Positions 3,107-31,462 of a stretch of DNA of 64,000 bases are shown one piece after another. This DNA comes from Amycolatopsis lurida (GTDB taxonomy: Bacteria; Actinomycetota; Actinomycetes; Mycobacteriales; Pseudonocardiaceae). Both the position numbers and the translations under genes were made by a program. The stretch covers positions 5,735,501 through 5,799,500 of the forward strand of contig NZ_FNTA01000004.1 in assembly GCF_900105055.1 (NCBI RefSeq), written 5' to 3'. Numbering within the stretch: the stretch's first letter is position 1; the number at the start of each line of letters is the position of its first letter. The notes beneath the pieces were generated by a model, which saw only the letters and a list, made by a program, of their open reading frames with translations, was not told the DNA's origin and ran no database searches.

Positions 3107-3587
3107 GCTGCCCGATCTCGGCCACGTTCTTCATCAGTTCGGAGTTCACCCAGGCGACAGTGTGGGCGAAGGTCAGCCCGGCGTCCTCGCCCCACGGATA
3201 GGCGGAAGGCGCGTCCAGGTCGGCGTCGGTCAACCGGTCCAGCACCGCCAGCCATTCCTCGCGAAGACCGCGAAGCCACTCGACGGCGGATTCTTCACCG
3301 GGCCAGGTGATCGCCTCGCGCTCGCGCGGAGTCCGCCCGTTCGCGTGATCCAGCGCGACACTCCACCACCAGCCGACATGCCAGGTGAGCCAGGCGATCG
3401 TGGGGACCGGGATCGGGTCGGGTTCGGTGTCGGCCCAGTCCGGGGTGCCGTCCGGCCGGATCGTCCAGCACAGGGCCGACGGCTCCCAGCGGAAGTCCGC
3501 CGGTCCGAGGTCGGCGAGGTGGTAATCGAACAACGACCAGGTCAGATCGAACTGCCAGCGCGACAGTTCGGTACGCGATGCGGGCAC
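3078..3587 (-). CDS. DinB-superfamily protein
   Basis: A 169-residue helical-bundle protein of the DinB/YfiT type. Conserved features are the N-terminal [17 protein letters not shown], the central [18 protein letters not shown] with histidines expected to help bind a metal, and the C-terminal [18 protein letters not shown]. The frame stays open much further upstream, but a GTG at 3587 with a GGAGGAAGG-type ribosome binding site just before it gives a normal family length. Members include thiol-dependent S-transferases (mycothiol or bacillithiol type) and metal-binding proteins of unknown role. It converges on dnaE and overlaps its end, so the two 3' ends form antisense transcripts. The exact reaction cannot be told. 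Confidence 0.8.
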
Positions 3588-8873: not shown

Positions 8874-9899
8874 TCAGCCCAGCAGGTAGGACGTGTGCAG
8901 CATGACAGTCTCGTCGACGGGAACGGAGACGGTGTTGTCGGTCCACATGGCCAGGTCACCGTTTCGCTCGATACTGAGGTCGAGGAACTGGTGCGAGCCG
9001 ACGTGGTGGCCACTCCAGGTGTTCCCGGCCCAGCGGTGGGCGTACTGCGGCTGGTAGGCCTGCGGCATCTTCAGGATCACCGTGCCGTGTCCGGCCGGGG
9101 TGTTCTGGCGCGTGACCGCGCCCCGCACGTACACCGTGGGGCCGATCCTGCGTATGTGGACCGCGGTGGCGTCCTGGGAGTCGCCTGGTCTTCCCGCCGT
9201 CCAGCCGGTGACCACGGGGACGGCCTGCCAGCCCGTGTCGTCCTCCACCACCAGCGATCGCCACGTGGCACCGGTCCAGAACTCGAGTCTGCCGGTGTCG
9301 GCACGATGCACGTACAGGCCGGGGTAGGCGTCGGCGGGACGTTCGCTCGCGTTGCGCACGGGCAGGATCCCGCCCACCGCGCAGGTGTACGGGCGCAGGT
9401 CGGTGATGTCGCCGCCGGTCACGGTCGAGGTGTTGGCCCGCACCGTGACCCTGGCGAGCTTGAGCACGTCGCCGGTCACCACCGGGTCGCTCGGTTGCGA
9501 CGCGGGGCCGCCCGGGACGATCTCGACGGCGAACTTCGATGTCGAGTCGCCGTACTGAGCGTCCGTCTGCCTGGCGACGACGAGATCGTGCCGGTTGTAC
9601 GAGCCGTGGGCGGGCACCTTCAGCACGTCGAGTGTCTTCTGCTCGTCCAGCGTCGCCAGGTACGCGCCCGCGGCGGCGTGCCGGGTGCCCTGGATGACGG
9701 CCTGGAACGGTTGCACGGTCACGTTTCCCGACGGCGTGGCGGTGGCGCGGACCACGCCGGGATCGCCGGGGGCGGGCCGCAGGCCGGTGCGGGACTGTGC
9801 CGGGGTCCTCCCGGGCGCGGCGAGGGCCGCGGTGGCCAGCCGGGCGTCCTCGGCGTCGACAACGGCGCCGCCGACCCAGCCGGAGTCGCGTTCTGGCAT
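8874..9899 (-). CDS. Tail fibre/receptor-binding protein paralogue B
   Basis: A 341-residue protein starting MPERDSGWVGGAVVDAEDAR. Its first about 200 residues align closely with the neighbouring upstream gene (shared SRTGLRPA, NPFQAV/QPFQAV, HDL(I/V)VARQTDAQYGD and VTGDV blocks). The last about 130 residues differ fully and form a beta-rich domain (WRSLVVEDDTGWQAVPVV, GPTVYVRGAVTRQNTP, GTVILKMPQAYQPQ) like phage fibre heads. A strong ribosome binding site (AGGAGACG) precedes the ATG at 9899, 11 bp after the first fibre gene. Inference: conserved tail-docking part and variable target-binding part. Confidence 0.72.
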   Translation of the reverse strand: MPERDSGWVGGAVVDAEDARLATAALAAPGRTPAQSRTGLRPAPGDPGVVRATATPSGNVTVQPFQAVIQGTRHAAAGAYLATLDEQKTLDVLKVPAHGSYNRHDLVVARQTDAQYGDSTSKFAVEIVPGGPASQPSDPVVTGDVLKLARVTVRANTSTVTGGDITDLRPYTCAVGGILPVRNASERPADAYPGLYVHRADTGRLEFWTGATWRSLVVEDDTGWQAVPVVTGWTAGRPGDSQDATAVHIRRIGPTVYVRGAVTRQNTPAGHGTVILKMPQAYQPQYAHRWAGNTWSGHHVGSHQFLDLSIERNGDLAMWTDNTVSVPVDETVMLHTSYLLG

Positions 9900-24181: not shown

Positions 24182-24259
24182 TGAAGGACGCTTTCCCCGT
24201 ATGCGACGCGGCGAAGGGCGCTTTCACCACGCGGGATGCGGTGAAGGACGCTTTCAGCC
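24182..24259. repeat. Three tandem copies of a 30-bp-period motif
   Basis: GAAGGACGCTTTC-type motifs start at 24182, 24212 and 24242 (second copy GAAGGGCGCTTTC), exactly 30 bp apart, with shared GCG(A/G)(C/T)GCGG spacer parts. They lie between the diguanylate cyclase stop and the PLA2 gene; the last copy overlaps the cyclase 3' end. Confidence 0.75.
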
Positions 24260-25699
24260 CTGGTCGGTGGGCGGCGAGGGAGGGGGCCGGTCCACGTCTT
24301 GGGCGAAGCGCACCTGGTTACGGCCGTTCTCCTTGGCCACGTAGACGGCGGCGTCGGAGGCGTGCAGAAGTTCCTCCAGGGATTCACCGTGACGGGGGAA
24401 CAACGCCGCGCCGATCGAGGTGGTGCGGCCCGAGATGGTCACCCGGCTGCCCCTTTTGTCGGTAGTCACTATATGCAGTTCGGCGATAGCACTGCGCACT
24501 CGCTCGGCGGCGAGTTTGGCCGCCGTTTCGTCGATATCCGGCAGGAGTACGAGGAATTCTTCGCCGCCGAACCGGCCGATGACGTCGGCGGGCCGGGTGA
24601 CCTCGTCCAATTTCCGCGCCACATCGCGGAGCACGTCGTCGCCCGCCGGATGTCCATATGTGTCGTTAATCCACTTGAAGTGATCGAGATCAATCATCAG
24701 AAGGGCCAGGTTGTCGTCCGATCGGGCAGTCCTGCCGAGCGCCCGATCGGCCGACTCCGACCATCCGCGCATGTTGAGAACACCGGTTTTCGGGTCCGTC
24801 CGCGCGTCGTTTTGCAGTTGGTCGATCTCGGCGAGGCGATTGAACACCACCGTCACCACGGCCATCACGATCACCATCGGTGGCATGATCAACAGCAGCA
24901 CCGCGGTGACCGCGCCGAGGCCGATCGTGATGGCCTCCAGCAGGTTGTCCGCCGTATTGCCGAGCACGGTGGAGATCGACGGCCGCTTCGGCGAGCCGAG
25001 CGCGAGGATGCCGCCGATGTAGGCGATCTGCACCGCCTCGAAGACCATTCCGGTGACGATCAGGACGCCGAACTCGCCGAGGGTGTCCCAGCCGGAGATC
25101 CGCCCCCATTCATGCGGCCCGAACGCGGCGAAGGTGAGCGACGCCAGCGTCACCGAAACGCCGTGGGTGACCGACGAGAACACGAAGTTGTGCGCGGGAC
25201 GGCGGGCGATGAACCAATGCTGGATCCGGACGATCGCGATGATGGAAAGCGTGAGCGAAAGCGGCAGGATCACCGCGGCGGGAAATGTCCACACCGCGGT
25301 GAGGTCGATGAGGACGGTATGGCTTCGATCGCGCCGCCTTTCCTCTTGCCGCTGGGTGAGCTGAATATGTGCCGTGGCGCCGACCGCGAGAATGGCGAAA
25401 CGGACCCAGTCCGTTCTTCCCGGATTCGCGGAATTCATCGTCGCGACGACCATGATCGCGATTCCGACGGCCTCCATCGCGAAAAGGAACGCGATGAATC
25501 GCTTCGGCCGCTGCCACAGCGCCCACGCCCTGGGATCGTAGGGATGACGTTCCGGTGGTGCGGCCTGGTCACCTTCCGGACTCGCCTGCCCGCGTTCGGT
25601 CACCGGTACACCGCTCTGGGCGGCGGGTGTCGCCGTCGCGTCGTCAAGGTCGCCGGTGCCGTCACCGTGCTGGCGGCGGTCACCGGTCTCGGCTGGCAA
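24254..25699 (-). CDS. Membrane diguanylate cyclase
   Basis: A 481-residue protein that makes cyclic di-GMP. About seven membrane helices span residues 65-290. The C-terminal GGDEF domain (about 310-470) has an intact GGEEF active site in IGRFGGEEFLVLLPD, the substrate-binding LMIDLDHFKWINDTYGH, and an RPAD inhibitory site five residues before GGEEF, so product feedback is expected. No EAL domain is present. Start TTG at 25699 is supported by an AGAGGT site and by the N-terminal length; an internal GTG is an alternative. In actinomycetes c-di-GMP acts through BldD in development. Confidence 0.9.
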   Translation of the reverse strand: MPAETGDRRQHGDGTGDLDDATATPAAQSGVPVTERGQASPEGDQAAPPERHPYDPRAWALWQRPKRFIAFLFAMEAVGIAIMVVATMNSANPGRTDWVRFAILAVGATAHIQLTQRQEERRRDRSHTVLIDLTAVWTFPAAVILPLSLTLSIIAIVRIQHWFIARRPAHNFVFSSVTHGVSVTLASLTFAAFGPHEWGRISGWDTLGEFGVLIVTGMVFEAVQIAYIGGILALGSPKRPSISTVLGNTADNLLEAITIGLGAVTAVLLLIMPPMVIVMAVVTVVFNRLAEIDQLQNDARTDPKTGVLNMRGWSESADRALGRTARSDDNLALLMIDLDHFKWINDTYGHPAGDDVLRDVARKLDEVTRPADVIGRFGGEEFLVLLPDIDETAAKLAAERVRSAIAELHIVTTDKRGSRVTISGRTTSIGAALFPRHGESLEELLHASDAAVYVAKENGRNQVRFAQDVDRPPPSPPTDQG

Positions 25700-25852
25700 T
25701 TGCTACCTCTTTTCCGCGCGGACGGCACGGCTGAGTAATCTCACCGGTACCGACTGATACACCGTTCGTATTCCACGGCCGGTATCATCCCATCGCATCG
25801 GTTGTCCGACACAGGCAAGGGTGCCCGCGAACACGGACCGGAGGTGGCAATC

Positions 25853-25870
25853 GTGTCCCGTGATTTCTGA
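25853..25870 (+). CDS. Mini-ORF 1 encoding MSRDF
   Basis: GTG start, five codons and TGA, preceded by a GGAGGTG site with about 6 nt spacing. The peptide MSRDF is nearly repeated by three further mini-ORFs in the next 200 bp. Too short for standard gene finding; the case rests on repetition plus synonymous codon differences. Confidence 0.55.
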   Translation: MSRDF

Positions 25871-25921
25871 TCTTGGCGACTGAATGTTTTTCGAGACGTG
25901 ACGCGGAAGGGGTGACGGATA

Positions 25922-25942
25922 GTGTCCAGTCGTGACTTCTGA
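25922..25942 (+). CDS. Mini-ORF 2 encoding MSSRDF
   Basis: GTG start, six codons and TGA; a GGAAGGGGTGA purine-rich site lies upstream. Same peptide as mini-ORF 3, but with different serine codons (TCC AGT versus TCG AGC), so identity holds at protein rather than DNA level. Confidence 0.55.
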   Translation: MSSRDF

Positions 25943-25995
25943 GCCCGGACAAGGTATTAGTTCGCAGCAACGAGGTGGCCGGGAGGTGTGTGACC

Positions 25996-26016
25996 GTGTC
26001 GAGCCGTGACTTCTGA
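25996..26016 (+). CDS. Mini-ORF 3 encoding MSSRDF
   Basis: GTG start, six codons, TGA; a strong GGGAGGTG site ends about 8 nt upstream. The sequences between mini-ORFs 1-2, 2-3 and 3-4 (52, 53 and 36 nt) are otherwise unlike each other. Confidence 0.55.
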   Translation: MSSRDF

Positions 26017-26052
26017 TCCGAAGCCGTTTCTTTTCACTGAGGTGCCGAAGCA

Positions 26053-26133
26053 GTGTCGTGTCGAGATTTCCGAGTACGAACCCGCCGGGCGGCCGTGCCG
26101 CCCCAGGGGTCGTCCAGTGTGGATTCCTCATGA
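26053..26133 (+). CDS. Mini-ORF 4, extended copy starting MSCRDF
   Basis: GTG start with a GAGGTG site upstream. The first six residues are MSCRDF; where the other copies have TGA, this one has CGA, so translation would run on to a 26-residue Arg/Pro/Ser-rich product ending over the 3' end of the convergent MFS gene. It may be a decayed copy with a lost stop or a longer effector peptide. Confidence 0.4.
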   Translation: MSCRDFRVRTRRAAVPPQGSSSVDSS

Positions 26134-27342
26134 CAGCAGCGGTTCCGGGCTGGATCCGTTGATGTGTCCCCAACTGAGTGCGACCAGGACGGCCAGCAGC
26201 AGGCCGACCACACCGGCCAGCGCGATGGCCGAGGTCGCCGACCCGAGCCGGTCGGCGGCGAGCCCGCCGAGTCCCGCCCCTACTCCCTGAGCCACCCGCA
26301 ACCCCGTGCGGTACACCCCACCCGCACCGCCCCTGAGTTCGTTCGGGACCCACGTGATGAACGTGGCGCTCACCGTGATCAGGTACGCCCCCGCGGCACC
26401 CGCCGCCGCCAGCAGGAGCAACGCCGGGATGAGCCCGGGTTGGAGCGCGAAGGCGATCAGAGCGACCATCGGTAGTGCCGCCAGCACGCCGAGCAGCTTC
26501 CGCCGTTGTTCCGCCGAGACGAACCGGGACAGCAGGAACGCCCCGATGACGAACCCCAGCGGATCGGCGGCCAGCAGCCAGCCGACGGCCTGTTTTCCCA
26601 CGCCCATCTCCGCGGCTAGCGGTGCGGCGAGCCCCTCGGGGACGACGGCCAGGCCCACCAGCCACGAGAACCAGACCAGCACCCGCAGGTGACGGTTGCC
26701 GAAAACCTGCTTCACCGCGCCGAACCAGCTGCCGTTGCCGTCGGACGCCGCCGCCCGCCGGGAGACCGAGAAGCGGACCACGGCCGCGCTCAGCAGGAAC
26801 GTCGCGGCGTCCAGTGCCAGAGCCCAGCTCGCCCCGACCTGCGACACCAGCAGACCGCCGCCCGCCAGGCCGAGCAGCATGGCGGTGTTCGTCGAGATGC
26901 CCCTGATGTCCTGGCTTTTGAGATAGAGGTCGTCGTCGGTGAACACCTCACGGGTCAGCGCGTTCTGCGCCGCGTTGCCGGGTGCGTTCACGAGCCGTGC
27001 CAGCACCACGAGCCCGCACAACAGGGCGAGCGGGGTGCCGGGGATCGCCATGATCGCGATCAGCACGCCTTGGATCAGGGACGAGACGACGAGGACGGTG
27101 CGCCTCGGGTATCGGTCGGCCAGCTGGGAGAGGCCGAGACCGCCGGCCAGCGCGGGCAGGAAGGTCAGGGAGTAGACCACCGCGGAAAGCAGCGCGGAGC
27201 CTGTCCGGTCGTAAACGAGGATCGCCAGCGCGACGATGGTGAGCTGGTCCCCGATGAGGGACTGCACCTCGGCGAGCCAGAGTGCGCGGAACTCGCGGTT
27301 CGCCAGGGCGGCGGTCATCCGCGGCGCCGCGTTCGTCTTCAC
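26128..27342 (-). CDS. MFS transporter
   Basis: A 404-residue protein with about twelve membrane helices. The loop after helix 2 has SQLADRYPRRTVLV, the MFS motif A region, and the pattern ARLVNAPGNAAQNAL is typical of the DHA-type/enterobactin exporter-like group (MFS_3). No substrate can be named. GTG at 27342 has a GGGGGAGGTGG site. It is divergent from the SDR gene with a 372-bp intergenic region and convergent with the mini-ORF transcript. Confidence 0.9.
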   Translation of the reverse strand: MKTNAAPRMTAALANREFRALWLAEVQSLIGDQLTIVALAILVYDRTGSALLSAVVYSLTFLPALAGGLGLSQLADRYPRRTVLVVSSLIQGVLIAIMAIPGTPLALLCGLVVLARLVNAPGNAAQNALTREVFTDDDLYLKSQDIRGISTNTAMLLGLAGGGLLVSQVGASWALALDAATFLLSAAVVRFSVSRRAAASDGNGSWFGAVKQVFGNRHLRVLVWFSWLVGLAVVPEGLAAPLAAEMGVGKQAVGWLLAADPLGFVIGAFLLSRFVSAEQRRKLLGVLAALPMVALIAFALQPGLIPALLLLAAAGAAGAYLITVSATFITWVPNELRGGAGGVYRTGLRVAQGVGAGLGGLAADRLGSATSAIALAGVVGLLLAVLVALSWGHINGSSPEPLLS

Positions 27343-27714: not shown

Positions 27715-28608
27715 ATGAACGGTTTGCTCGACGACAAGGCCGTCGTCGTGACCGGGGCGGGACGGGGCCTCGGCGAGGCGTTCGCGGTGCACGTCGCGAG
27801 GGCGGGCGGGGCCGTCGTGGTCAACGACATCGACGCCGAACTGGCCGAACGGACGACGGAGAACATCCGCCGGTTCGGCGGGAGGGCGGTCGCCAGCGGG
27901 CACAGCGTCGCGGATCCGGAGCAGGCACAGGAGATCGTCGACCTGTGCCTCACCGAGTTCGGCGCGATCGACGGGCTGGTCAACAACGCGGGCCTGAACT
28001 ACGAGGCGCTGCCGTGGGAGGACGACGTCGAACAGGCCCGCGAACTGGTCGAGGTGAACGTCCTCGGCGTCATGTACACCGGGCTCGCCGCGATCAAGGC
28101 GATGGTGGCGCGGGGCAAGCCGGGCTCGATCGTCAACATCTCGTCGGGGGCGTCGCTCGGGCAGCGCAAGCTCGGCGTGTACGCCGCCAGCAAGGGCGCC
28201 GTCGCTTCGCTGACCTACTCGTGGGCGCTCGACCTGGAGGAGAGCGGGATCCGGGTGAACGCGGTCTGCCCGCTCGCGCACACCCGGATGGTGTGGAAAT
28301 CCGAACGGTCGCTGCGGGCCTGCCCACCGGACCGGACGCCGTCGCGGATCGCGCCCGTCGTGCTCTTCCTGCTCGGCTCCGGATCCGACGGCATCACCGG
28401 GCAGATGATCCGCTGCAACGGGCCGCAGCTGCACGTCATGGGGCAGCCGTTCCTCAAGCAGCCCATCCTCGAGCGGCCGGTGTGGGACACCGAGACCGTG
28501 CAGCGCGCCTTCGACGAGGTCTTCAGCGCGCACCTGGAGAACTACGGCCTCGAAAAGCGTGTCCCGCCGCGGCTGCGCAAATGGACCGAGTCGACCCGGA
28601 CCGCGTGA
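27715..28608 (+). CDS. Short-chain dehydrogenase/reductase
   Basis: A 297-residue classical SDR. It has the cofactor motif TGAGRGLG, an Asp after the second strand (NDID, favouring NAD), NNAG, the serine in NISSGASLGQ and YAASK with catalytic Tyr and Lys, then RVNAVCPLA. The C-terminal extension (about residues 235-297, QLHVMGQPFLKQPILERPVW) is longer than usual and resembles the multifunctional steroid-type or acyl-group SDRs of mycobacteria. ATG at 27715 is chosen over the GTG at 27706 because AAGGGG then lies at normal distance. Substrate unknown. Confidence 0.88.
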   Translation: MNGLLDDKAVVVTGAGRGLGEAFAVHVARAGGAVVVNDIDAELAERTTENIRRFGGRAVASGHSVADPEQAQEIVDLCLTEFGAIDGLVNNAGLNYEALPWEDDVEQARELVEVNVLGVMYTGLAAIKAMVARGKPGSIVNISSGASLGQRKLGVYAASKGAVASLTYSWALDLEESGIRVNAVCPLAHTRMVWKSERSLRACPPDRTPSRIAPVVLFLLGSGSDGITGQMIRCNGPQLHVMGQPFLKQPILERPVWDTETVQRAFDEVFSAHLENYGLEKRVPPRLRKWTESTRTA

Positions 28609-28610
28609 CC

Positions 28611-28733
28611 AGCTGGACGACACGCGTGACCAGCGGGACGACACGCGTGCTCAGACGGACGACACGGCCGTGCCGTCCGTCCAGTCACGCGTGTCGTCCA
28701 TGCAGTCACGCGTGTCGTCCGTCTGAGCACGCG
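28611..28733. repeat. Nested inverted repeat, terminator candidate
   Basis: Arms at 28644-28666 and 28711-28733 pair perfectly over 23 bp (containing CTCAGACGGACGACACG). Inside and before them the short unit GACGACACGCGTGA occurs several times in both directions, so alternative stems can form. It lies between the SDR and the convergent isomerase-family gene. A related GGACGACACG stem occurs at 48237-48283. Confidence 0.75.
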
Positions 28734-29411: not shown

Positions 29412-29460
29412 GGCGGCAAGTTAACAGCGGTCGCTTCCCGCTCGCGACTCCTTTCGTCCC

Positions 29461-29590
29461 GTGCTCGAAGACGTAACTCGCGTGCTTGAAGGCGTAACTC
29501 GCGTGCTTGAAGGCGTAACTCGCGTGATTGGAGACGGAACTCGCGAGTTACGCCTCCAGACACGCGAGTTACGCCTCCCATCACGGGTGT
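29461..29590. repeat. 21-bp tandem repeats forming a large hairpin
   Basis: Four tandem 21-bp units of the type GAAGGCGTAACTCGCGTG run forward (29461-29540), followed by two inverted units with CGCGAGTTACGCCTCC and a decayed third. The array can fold as one long or several alternative stems. It lies after the acyl-CoA ligase stop and before the isomerase-family gene, both on the minus strand. Confidence 0.8.
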
Positions 29591-29596
29591 TACGGC

Positions 29597-31462
29597 TCAG
29601 GAACCGGCGGCGGGGGCGGGTTCCGGAGCGGAGGCCGCGTACAGATCCGCGATCGTCGGCGCGTAGCGGTCGTTGATGACCCGCCGCTTCAGCTTCAGGG
29701 TCGGGGTCACCTCGCCGGTTTCCGGCGTCCACGCCTTGGGGATCACGTGGTACCGCTTGATCTGCTCGATCCTGGCCAGCCGCGCGTTCGCCGCCTCGAC
29801 GGCCTTGTCGATCTCCGCGCGGACCTCCGCGTTGTCGGCGAGCGATTCGCCTTCCGCCAGCTGGATGCCGTTCGCGGTCGCCCAGCCCGGCGCGATCTCG
29901 TCGTCGACGACGATGAGCGCCGTGACGTACGGCCGTTTCTCGCCGATCGCGACGGCCTGCCCGATCAGCGGGTGTTCCTTGAGGAGACCTTCGATCTTCG
30001 TCGGGGCGATGTTCTTGCCGCTCGAAGTGATGATCAGTTCCTTCTTGCGGTCGGTGATCGTGACGAAACCGCGTTCGTCGACGGTCCCGATGTCGCCGGT
30101 GGCGAGCCAGCCGTCGGCGTCGACGTCCGGTTCGATCGTGCCGTCCGCCTGCAGGTAACCGAGGAACACGATCGCGCCGCGGACGAGGAGTTCGCCGTCC
30201 TCGGCGACCTTCACCTCGATGCCCTCCAGCGGGCGGCCGACCGAACCGGCCTTGAACGCCGACGGTGAGTTCGAGGTGACCGCGCCGGTGGTCTCGGACA
30301 GTCCCCAGACCTCCTGGATCTCGACCCCGAGCCCGGCGATGAAGTACAGGACCTCCACCGGCAGCGCGGCGGCACCGCTGGAGGCGACCTCGATCTGGTC
30401 GAGGCCCAGCATCGCCCGCACCGGCGCGAGCGCGGCCGCGTCGGTCTGGGCGATCTTCTCGGCGAGTTCCGGCGGCACCTCCTTGCCGTCACTGCGCAGT
30501 TTGTAGCCCTGTTGCAGCAGTTCGTTCGCGGCGATCAGGCCGTTCCGCTTCTCTTCAGGCAGCGAGCCGAGCAGGTTTTTGAGGCCTGCCGCCATCTTTT
30601 CCCACACCCGCGGTACGCCGAAGAAACTCTTCGGGTGCACCTGGCCGAGCGCGCCGACGACGCCGGTCGGGTCGGCGACGGTGTGCACGTGCCCGGCCCA
30701 CACGATCGGCATGTAGATCGACAGCTCGCGTTCGGCGATGTGCGCGAGCGGCAGGTACGCGATGTTCGTGGCGTGCATCGGGGAGTCGTGCAGCCTCTGC
30801 ACGGCGACGGCCTGGTAGATCGCGTTGCGGTGCGAGAGCACGACACCCTTGGGGTCGCCGGTGGTGCCGGAGGTGTAGATCATCGACAGCGGGTCGTCCG
30901 GAGTGATCGCGGACCACGCTGTCTCGAACGCCTGCGGGTCGGCGGCGTGTGCCTCCGCGCCCGCCGCGCGCAGCTCGGCGAACGACAGGAACCGCTTGTC
31001 GTCCGGCGGGACCACGGACGCGTCGAGCAGGACGACGTGCCGCAGCGCGGGCAGGTCGTCGAGGACCTGCGACCAGCGGCCGAGTTCGTCGGCTCCGGCG
31101 AGGACGACGACGCCGGCGGCGCTGTGCCGGGCGACGAACCCGATCTGCTCCGGGCTGAGCGTCGCGTACGCGGTGCAGGGGATCGCGCCGAGATGGGCCG
31201 CGGCGAGATCGGCGATCAGGTGGTCCGGACTGCTCGGCGCCATGATCAGCATCCGGTCGCGGACGCCGAGCCCGAGGCCGGCGAGTCCTCGGGAAACCTC
31301 CGCGATGGAGGTGCGGAATTCGGCCCAGTTCAGGGTCGGCTTGCCCTCGATGTCGAGTGACGTGACCGCCGGCAGGTCACCGAACTCCTGAGCGTTGCGG
31401 TGAAGCAGGGCGGGGATGGTCTGGCCTTCGATCTGCTCGGCGACGGTCGGCTGGGTGGTCAA
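29597..31462 (-). CDS. Long-chain acyl-CoA ligase
   Basis: A 621-residue AMP-forming ligase of the FadD15/FAA1 type. It has the P-loop-like YTSGTTGDPKGVVLSH, the EVWGLSETTGAVTSN motif, the TGDIGTVDERGFVTITDRKK hinge region and a C-terminal catalytic lysine region (TPTLKLKRRVI). It activates fatty acids as acyl-AMP then acyl-CoA in the cytoplasm. TTG at 31462 is chosen because an exact AGGAGG sits 6 nt upstream; a GTG at 31495 would lengthen it by 11 residues. It is divergent from the TenA-like/kynureninase pair, across a region with a perfect palindrome. Confidence 0.93.
   Translation of the reverse strand: MTTQPTVAEQIEGQTIPALLHRNAQEFGDLPAVTSLDIEGKPTLNWAEFRTSIAEVSRGLAGLGLGVRDRMLIMAPSSPDHLIADLAAAHLGAIPCTAYATLSPEQIGFVARHSAAGVVVLAGADELGRWSQVLDDLPALRHVVLLDASVVPPDDKRFLSFAELRAAGAEAHAADPQAFETAWSAITPDDPLSMIYTSGTTGDPKGVVLSHRNAIYQAVAVQRLHDSPMHATNIAYLPLAHIAERELSIYMPIVWAGHVHTVADPTGVVGALGQVHPKSFFGVPRVWEKMAAGLKNLLGSLPEEKRNGLIAANELLQQGYKLRSDGKEVPPELAEKIAQTDAAALAPVRAMLGLDQIEVASSGAAALPVEVLYFIAGLGVEIQEVWGLSETTGAVTSNSPSAFKAGSVGRPLEGIEVKVAEDGELLVRGAIVFLGYLQADGTIEPDVDADGWLATGDIGTVDERGFVTITDRKKELIITSSGKNIAPTKIEGLLKEHPLIGQAVAIGEKRPYVTALIVVDDEIAPGWATANGIQLAEGESLADNAEVRAEIDKAVEAANARLARIEQIKRYHVIPKAWTPETGEVTPTLKLKRRVINDRYAPTIADLYAASAPEPAPAAGS

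Follow-up and report, generated by a model that had tools for sequence, protein, structure and literature searches.

Tandem mini-ORFs for SRDF-type peptides, probable ligands of a divergent membrane diguanylate cyclase in Amycolatopsis lurida

The 64,000-nucleotide stretch of Amycolatopsis lurida DNA analyzed here (the window, whose positions are used as coordinates throughout) contains an array of very short open reading frames (mini-ORFs) that encode the peptides MSRDF, MSSRDF, and MSSRDF and that run divergently from a gene for a membrane diguanylate cyclase. We conclude that the mini-ORFs are probably genes for an unprocessed peptide ligand of this cyclase, which would set its output of cyclic di-GMP (c-di-GMP). 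Comparison among genomes carries this reading at three points, namely, selection on the encoded peptide, pairing of the array with the cyclase, and covariation between the two. From these patterns we infer transcription, translation, binding, and the side of the membrane on which the peptide acts.

The mini-ORF array and selection on its peptides

The array and the ribosome binding sites read from the sequence are as follows.

25840..25846, plus strand: ribosome binding site GGAGGTG of mini-ORF 1; AGGTG is retained at the 80% level in 22 aligned upstream regions
25853..25870, plus strand: mini-ORF 1, MSRDF (GTG TCC CGT GAT TTC TGA; GTG start, TGA stop)
25905..25912, plus strand: ribosome binding site GGAAGGGG of mini-ORF 2; 25909-25921 varies at 2 of 13 sites
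25922..25942, plus strand: mini-ORF 2, MSSRDF (GTG TCC AGT CGT GAC TTC TGA)
25981..25988, plus strand: ribosome binding site GGGAGGTG of mini-ORF 3; 25981-25995 varies at 6 of 15 sites
25996..26016, plus strand: mini-ORF 3, MSSRDF (GTG TCG AGC CGT GAC TTC TGA)
26053..26073, plus strand: decayed fourth copy, MSCRDF (GTG TCG TGT CGA GAT TTC CGA; CGA replaces the stop)

All four GTG-started frames of the original prediction, including the stop-less MSCRDF, were found in the sequence, and the purine-rich sites it had noted were found ahead of the three intact mini-ORFs. Its array of four holds for these three conserved mini-genes; the fourth is a relic that has decayed clade-wide. The frame of the fourth copy stays open until a stop at 26131-26133, and the last 6 bases of this frame are its sole overlap with the 3' end, at 26128, of an MFS transporter gene. 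The three intact mini-ORFs are convergent with that gene, not antisense to its end as had been proposed. The SRDF-stop pattern WSNCGNGAYTTYTGA has four matches in the 9.05-Mb genome, three of which fall within the 164 bases of the array (25853-26016), and this clustering exceeds chance.

Among 19 close genomes, only 3 of the 60 sites in the three intact mini-ORFs vary, two being third-codon positions and one a GTG/ATG start: mini-ORF 1 is invariant (0/18 sites), mini-ORF 2 varies at 2/21 sites (both third positions), and mini-ORF 3 varies at 1/21 (the start). The spacers vary at 14/38, 16/38, and 14/24 sites (37 to 58%), and all 18 core sites of the fourth copy vary or are lost, this copy being decayed in every one of the 19 genomes and largely deleted in two. 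Copies within a genome were also compared. In none of 614 within-genome pairs did the R or D codon differ at its first or second position, whereas third positions differed in 33% (R) and 18% (D) of the pairs and flanks in approximately 40 to 74%. In the codon for the residue before R (residue X), 652 of 653 differences were silent, and 270 of the 652 exchanged AGY and TCN serine codons. Start codons interchange among copies and genomes, with NTG starts and ribosome sites retained. These patterns strongly support selection on the encoded peptide, which the original prediction had proposed together with unrelated spacers; the codon-level variation and the variable spacers bear it out. Its suggestion of a signalling or regulatory peptide family is likewise strongly supported, by the codon-level selection and by the strict arrays found beside the cyclase (see below).

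When 80 genomes of the genus were searched at the DNA level, the array was recovered at 84 to 100% identity in 19 of them, its own included, with weaker partial matches in more distant species. Some of the latter encode other, internally uniform peptides (four copies of MSNRDF, five of MxARDF, five of MSSRDW, three of MxNRDL, and three of MxGRDF). Conservation of the peptides at the same place in relatives, on which the original prediction hinged, was examined and found. In a family-wide pattern search, 157 of 390 genomes had a match, spread over 23 of 46 genera; a backwards control pattern matched in 16, and some single matches are due to chance. The detailed set comprised 104 array loci from 102 genomes, with 1 to 23 copies per locus (23 of MxSRDW/MSRDW at locus L194, 18 at L189, and 10 of MSSRDF at L143). 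The ORFs total about 5 to 8 residues, the five-residue forms being MSRDF, MSRDW, and MDRDL, and residue X changes between species within one genus. In several Amycolatopsis species (A. bullii, A. vancoresmycina, A. iheyensis, and others; L259, L260, L265, L266, and L270), the terminal residue is G, C, or A, not F, W, or L (MSNRDG, MSNRDC, and MRNRDA).

Some loci hold additional copies. At L145 (genome G287), a decayed first copy upstream of position 8876 reads TTG TCT GGC CGT AAC TTC TGA (MSGRNF), and the live copies encode MxDRDF; the X = G of the relic matches the sister species, and it looks as if it were left over from a switch of X. Three genomes of genus g47 carry a second, unlinked MSNRDF mini-ORF. 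The one at L157 (G266:C4, 9035-9055) shares bases with the stop codon of a small gene upstream and has the same X as the main locus, and the same pattern match is present at G252:C51 and G263:C205. At L222 (G203:C1:2643200-2649500), a single MSDRDF mini-ORF with a ribosome site lies at reverse-complement position 3147 in a prophage-like region (terminase-like neighbor, judged by eye); the host array encodes MxDRDF, and the mini-ORF is either a chance occurrence or a phage-borne copy of the host peptide.

Pairing with a divergent membrane diguanylate cyclase

The genes that flank the array, and the parts of the cyclase discussed below, are as follows.

24257..25699, minus strand: divergent membrane diguanylate cyclase, 481 amino acids as listed from TTG (Pfam GGDEF, 6.6e-43)
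24827..25534, minus strand: membrane sensor domain of the cyclase, residues 56-291 (MASE9 below the Pfam cutoff only)
25217..25219, minus strand: codon for sensor residue 161, which is His here and varies in step with residue X of the peptide
26128..27342, minus strand: MFS transporter, a frequent but not constant neighbor (Pfam MFS_1, 2.5e-25)

The divergent arrangement of array and cyclase that had been predicted agrees with the gene order. The cyclase adjoins the array in 19 of 21 loci compared and the MFS gene in 18; among the 104 array loci, the cyclase was present in 97 and MFS in 91, the latter 2 to 3 kb away in genus g26. The sensor domain alone (alignment A1), used as the query against the named genome collection, yielded 62 loci from Amycolatopsis, Prauserella, Saccharomonospora, Thermocrispum, Haloechinothrix, Actinophytocola, Qaidamihabitans, Goodfellowiella, and one unclassified metagenome-assembled genome, the species overlapping the genomes covered above. 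At 60 of the 62 loci, the cyclase has on its divergent side a mini-ORF of the RD type, equipped with a ribosome-like site. A strict, motif-blind rule (at least two mini-ORFs of 5 to 8 residues having four residues in common) identified arrays at 51 of the 62; the reverse strand gave 0/62, and shuffles gave an expectation of 0.

If the peptide is the ligand of the cyclase, then cyclase orthologues without an RDF match are predicted to carry other arrays. In genomes lacking the RDF pattern, many orthologues adjoin such arrays, of MRDREA (two to four copies), MSDREA (at least 10), MSDRAW (three to four), MAGRDY/MTGRDY (three), and MMDREY/MLDREY, and strict arrays were found at 19 of 30 such loci (controls, 0). 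Paralogous cyclases, with sensors 25 to 34% identical, include six with strict arrays, among which are 11 copies of MxNRDN (G404), three of MRNHNW, two of MREKIW, two of MRNREY, and MRADRDM/MRRDRDM; in the window's own genome, the array of a paralogous cyclase encodes MQDNNW/MRDNNWT. The paralogue set as a whole had a strict array at 11 of 29 loci, five of which are main-locus cyclases fetched again. In a class-wide sample of 296 genomes, the sensor was matched in 55. There, in another family (f32), the cyclases adjoin MRDTTWS (13 copies), MRDNTWT (four to eight), MRDNNWN (seven), and MRDNKWSR (three). Of 28 loci tested, 16 had strict arrays, and f32, with 18 loci, accounted for 15 of these (controls, 0).

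The GGEEF motif (residues 378-382), R369, and D372 are invariant in 55 aligned cyclase sequences; R369 and D372 belong to an RxxD inhibitory-site motif. With its GGDEF domain and intact catalytic motif, the partner is predicted to be a diguanylate cyclase. Pfam gave no family at cutoff for the sensor, the nearest being MASE9 (11 bits versus a cutoff of 24.3), and the sensors of two relatives reached 22.8 and 17.5 bits, also below it. The Foldseek matches shown were GGDEF proteins. In an AlphaFold model (predicted local distance difference test score [pLDDT], 85; predicted template modeling score [pTM], 0.71), the helices before GGDEF are 66-88, 95-114, 116-125, 135-144, 147-165, 169-192, 205-235, 249-271, and 273-300. 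Invariant arginines (R117, R121-R123, R158, R166, and R167) lie in the loops around 117-126 and 158-168, and by the positive-inside rule these loops are probably cytosolic, which would place residues 116, 124, 134, 161, and 164 on the inner side and residue 197 outside.

Covariation, proposed mechanism, and alternatives

Cyclase and MFS alignment columns were scanned for covariation with X, using residues seen at least five times plus two groups, all one- and two-letter sets of X, and a tree built from the GGDEF domain and MFS only. The top column was sensor residue 161 (alignment position 162), with phi 0.98 and five shared changes with X. The next-ranked columns are also sensor residues (220, 164, 124, 134, and 187); the best MFS column had three co-changes and the best GGDEF column two. 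Arg161 accompanies X = D, G, or A, and X = S or N goes with His in genera g1, g33, and g68 but with L, M, or I in g26, g46, and g47. The one row out of line at residue 161 is G146, the sole genome with mixed copies. Among independent pairs, six agree, none oppose, and one ties (sign test, p 0.031). Random null traits with six to eight changes produced five co-changes with one or another cyclase column in 12 of 300 runs, and none of the 300 reached phi 0.975; this null used one partition and the actual scan fifteen. Further loci with readable X all agreed (24/24), although they represent few lineages and not 24 independent cases; X = D occurs with R116/R161, X = G with Q116/R161/D197, and X = N with Q116/H161. 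In the main set, most X = D lineages have R or H at residue 116 (g40 and one g28 have Ser), and 10 of 10 X = G rows have Gln there, a pattern that fits charge pairing to Asp. Two marks expected of a peptide-receptor pair, linked genes (60/62) and covariation (X with residue 161, within the limits of these statistics), were found at the sequence level.

Two further elements bear on how the array might be expressed.

25781..25788, plus strand: block GGTATCAT, the best-conserved element upstream of the array in 22 aligned upstream regions, a few of which lack it
26087..26103, plus strand: hairpin GGGCGGC-CGT-GCCGCCC after the array, seen in the sequence and paired in the RNA fold

The upstream block (GGTATCATCYCA) lies 65 to 72 bases ahead of the first window mini-ORF and is kept in most of the 22 aligned regions. 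It is a putative -10 element of the array promoter; a sigma-70 consensus scan gave no match at the block. The hairpin is a possible terminator without a T run, and a terminator scan requiring a T run did not pick it up.

In the mechanism that we propose, a single promoter at the GGTATCAT block would read the whole array, and each mini-ORF would be translated separately from its own ribosome site, yielding a near-mature peptide of 5 to 6 residues directly, with neither precursor nor signal sequence. Because the second residue varies and five-residue forms exist, the recognized part is likely to be the C-terminal core X-R-D-Z (SRDF here), leaving residue 2 and the start codon free. The peptide would bind to the polytopic sensor domain in the membrane, probably close to the cytosolic side, on which residues 116, 161, and 164 neighbor the invariant arginines, and binding would alter c-di-GMP synthesis by the GGDEF domain. 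Copy number (1 to 23) would set the peptide dose. Ligand and receptor would drift jointly, giving each lineage its own peptide, and likewise some paralogous cyclases in one cell. Since there is no signal sequence and no constant transporter gene, an intracellular ligand that reports array expression is the simplest model; by analogy to RRNPP systems, release and reimport of the peptide are possible. The arrays might even form a class-wide actinobacterial peptide language, in which each membrane cyclase has its own encoded 5- to 7-residue peptide, released and shared between cells, with several orthogonal channels per cell, copy number as a volume control, and species-isolating pherotype switches, feeding the c-di-GMP switch that governs development. 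We regard this extension as conceivable and somewhat doubtful.

Several points weigh against pairing of peptide and cyclase. Seven weak cyclase homologues in family f29 and many paralogous cyclases show no array; arrays without a nearby cyclase occur in G240, G242, and G357-G359 and at two second-site single copies; and no array is visible beside the cyclase at L275 and L282, although L275 is one contig of G359 and the array of that genome is on a different one. Given the difference in partitions between null and scan, the significance of the covariation is suggestive rather than final. The peptide could instead be a substrate or regulator of the MFS transporter, with the cyclase a bystander, as might be thought from the MFS matches in 91 of 104 loci and from G240 and G242, where a mini-ORF lies near an MFS gene without a cyclase. 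No MFS match was found beside the array, however, in g46, g49 (G277 and G280), g56, two single-copy g26 loci, or G361, and MFS columns track X less well (at best three co-changes versus five), making this quite unlikely. We give as little credence to regulation in cis, in which the array would be a leader or antisense transcript whose translating ribosomes control transcription into MFS or the divergent promoter, the peptides being inert. In its favor, array and MFS converge in most of the 21 loci, the region upstream of the array also serves as that of the cyclase, and the next gene has the strand of the array in 3 of 21 (L150, L154, and L157). Yet it is the peptide sequence itself, not the mere presence of an ORF, that is conserved and that tracks cyclase sensor residues; the MFS match is absent from 13 of 104 loci and distant in g26; and the RNA fold of 25795-26127 is no better than shuffles (z-score, +1.43 versus 100 shuffles). 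The translated leader array of the original prediction is likewise not supported: in 18 of 21 loci the gene that follows runs on the other strand, the array diverges from its steady partner, and the fold gives no help.

A released antimicrobial or toxin-like product directed against other cells, with the cyclase as immunity or output, would be in keeping with multicopy genes and with changes of X between species of one genus. The peptides, however, are very short and charged, lack a signal sequence, and have no constant transporter gene, and their covariation partner is a signalling enzyme; we judge this very unlikely. Least credible is the idea that proteins bind the repeats as DNA sites in the cyclase promoter and that the resemblance to ORFs is accidental. 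Although a short motif is indeed repeated in the intergenic region upstream of the cyclase, its variation obeys the reading frame, with variable third positions and swapped serine codon families (270/652 silent differences), and NTG starts and ribosome sites are kept.

A Pfam scan of six neighbors in the window returned GGDEF, MFS, phospholipase A2-like, SDR, MDMPI_N, and AMP-binding matches, with no kinase among them, and Rfam gave no family at the array region. Tandem 21-base repeats around CGCGTG/ACTCGCG (28602-28733 and 29460-29598) lie near gene ends and are apparently unrelated to the mini-ORFs.

Meaning and relation to known systems

For many membrane sensor domains of GGDEF proteins, we know of no ligand. 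Here the genome appears to spell the ligand beside its receptor, for many receptors, and in a form short enough for cheap synthesis. If the peptide is indeed a cyclase ligand, then actinobacteria, which are major antibiotic producers, have a peptide input to c-di-GMP that is encoded by genes, signals made on the ribosome need no precursor in their encoding, and the ligand of a cyclase can be read from sequence. ORFs of 5 to 8 codons fall under the usual limits of gene finders, and such arrays could therefore be common yet unseen.

The arrays resemble RRNPP systems (Rap-Phr, PlcR-PapR, Rgg-SHP, and arbitrium AimR-AimP) in their very short, specific ligands, adjoining receptor gene, and lineage-specific pairs. 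In RRNPP systems, the peptide is excised from a longer precursor that is secreted, and its receptor is a cytosolic tetratricopeptide repeat (TPR) protein. Here, in contrast, the mini-ORF would yield the peptide directly, from 1 to 23 copies, and the gene linked to it encodes a GGDEF enzyme of the membrane; array ORFs of about 5 to 8 residues contain no precursor with an export signal, and the steady neighbor is not a TPR-repeat cytosolic receptor (unlinked receptors were not sought). Agr, ComX-ComP, and ComD-CSP likewise place a membrane receptor beside the ligand gene and show pherotype-like joint changes. Those pheromones come from processed precursors and act through membrane histidine kinases with two-component output, whereas the array has no precursor, its predicted output is c-di-GMP, and no kinase is among the six scanned neighbors. 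Leader and attenuator peptides such as trpL and ermCL are also tiny ORFs with their own ribosome sites; they lie upstream of, and on the same strand as, the gene they control and are usually single, unlike these divergent, tandem mini-ORFs that covary with a protein. Yeast MF-alpha raises dose by repeating the ligand sequence, in its case within one precursor with internal repeats and here in mini-genes that would be translated separately.

Polytopic membrane domains ahead of GGDEF are shared with MASE9 and other MASE sensors, the window sensor falling below the MASE9 Pfam cutoff; one passage of a review lists MASE1 among domains without known purpose (PMC8846402). The same review describes quorum-signal receptors in c-di-GMP networks, in which enzyme activity depends on a small ligand that diffuses: RpfR with the fatty acid BDSF (Burkholderia diffusible signal factor) and a dCACHE cyclase with autoinducer 2 (AI-2). 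There the sensor is PAS or dCACHE, and no gene-encoded peptide array is involved; in its main text, "peptide" appears once, in another context (PMC8846402). Our literature searches found no description of these mini-ORF arrays. The original interpretation is supported as regards a peptide family under selection and not supported as regards a leader array; the cyclase partnership, the joint change of peptide and sensor, and the breadth of the family had not been recognized in it. Set beside the known systems, we regard as new in kind these tandem mini-genes, whose peptides would be directly encoded and unprocessed and which change together with a membrane diguanylate cyclase.
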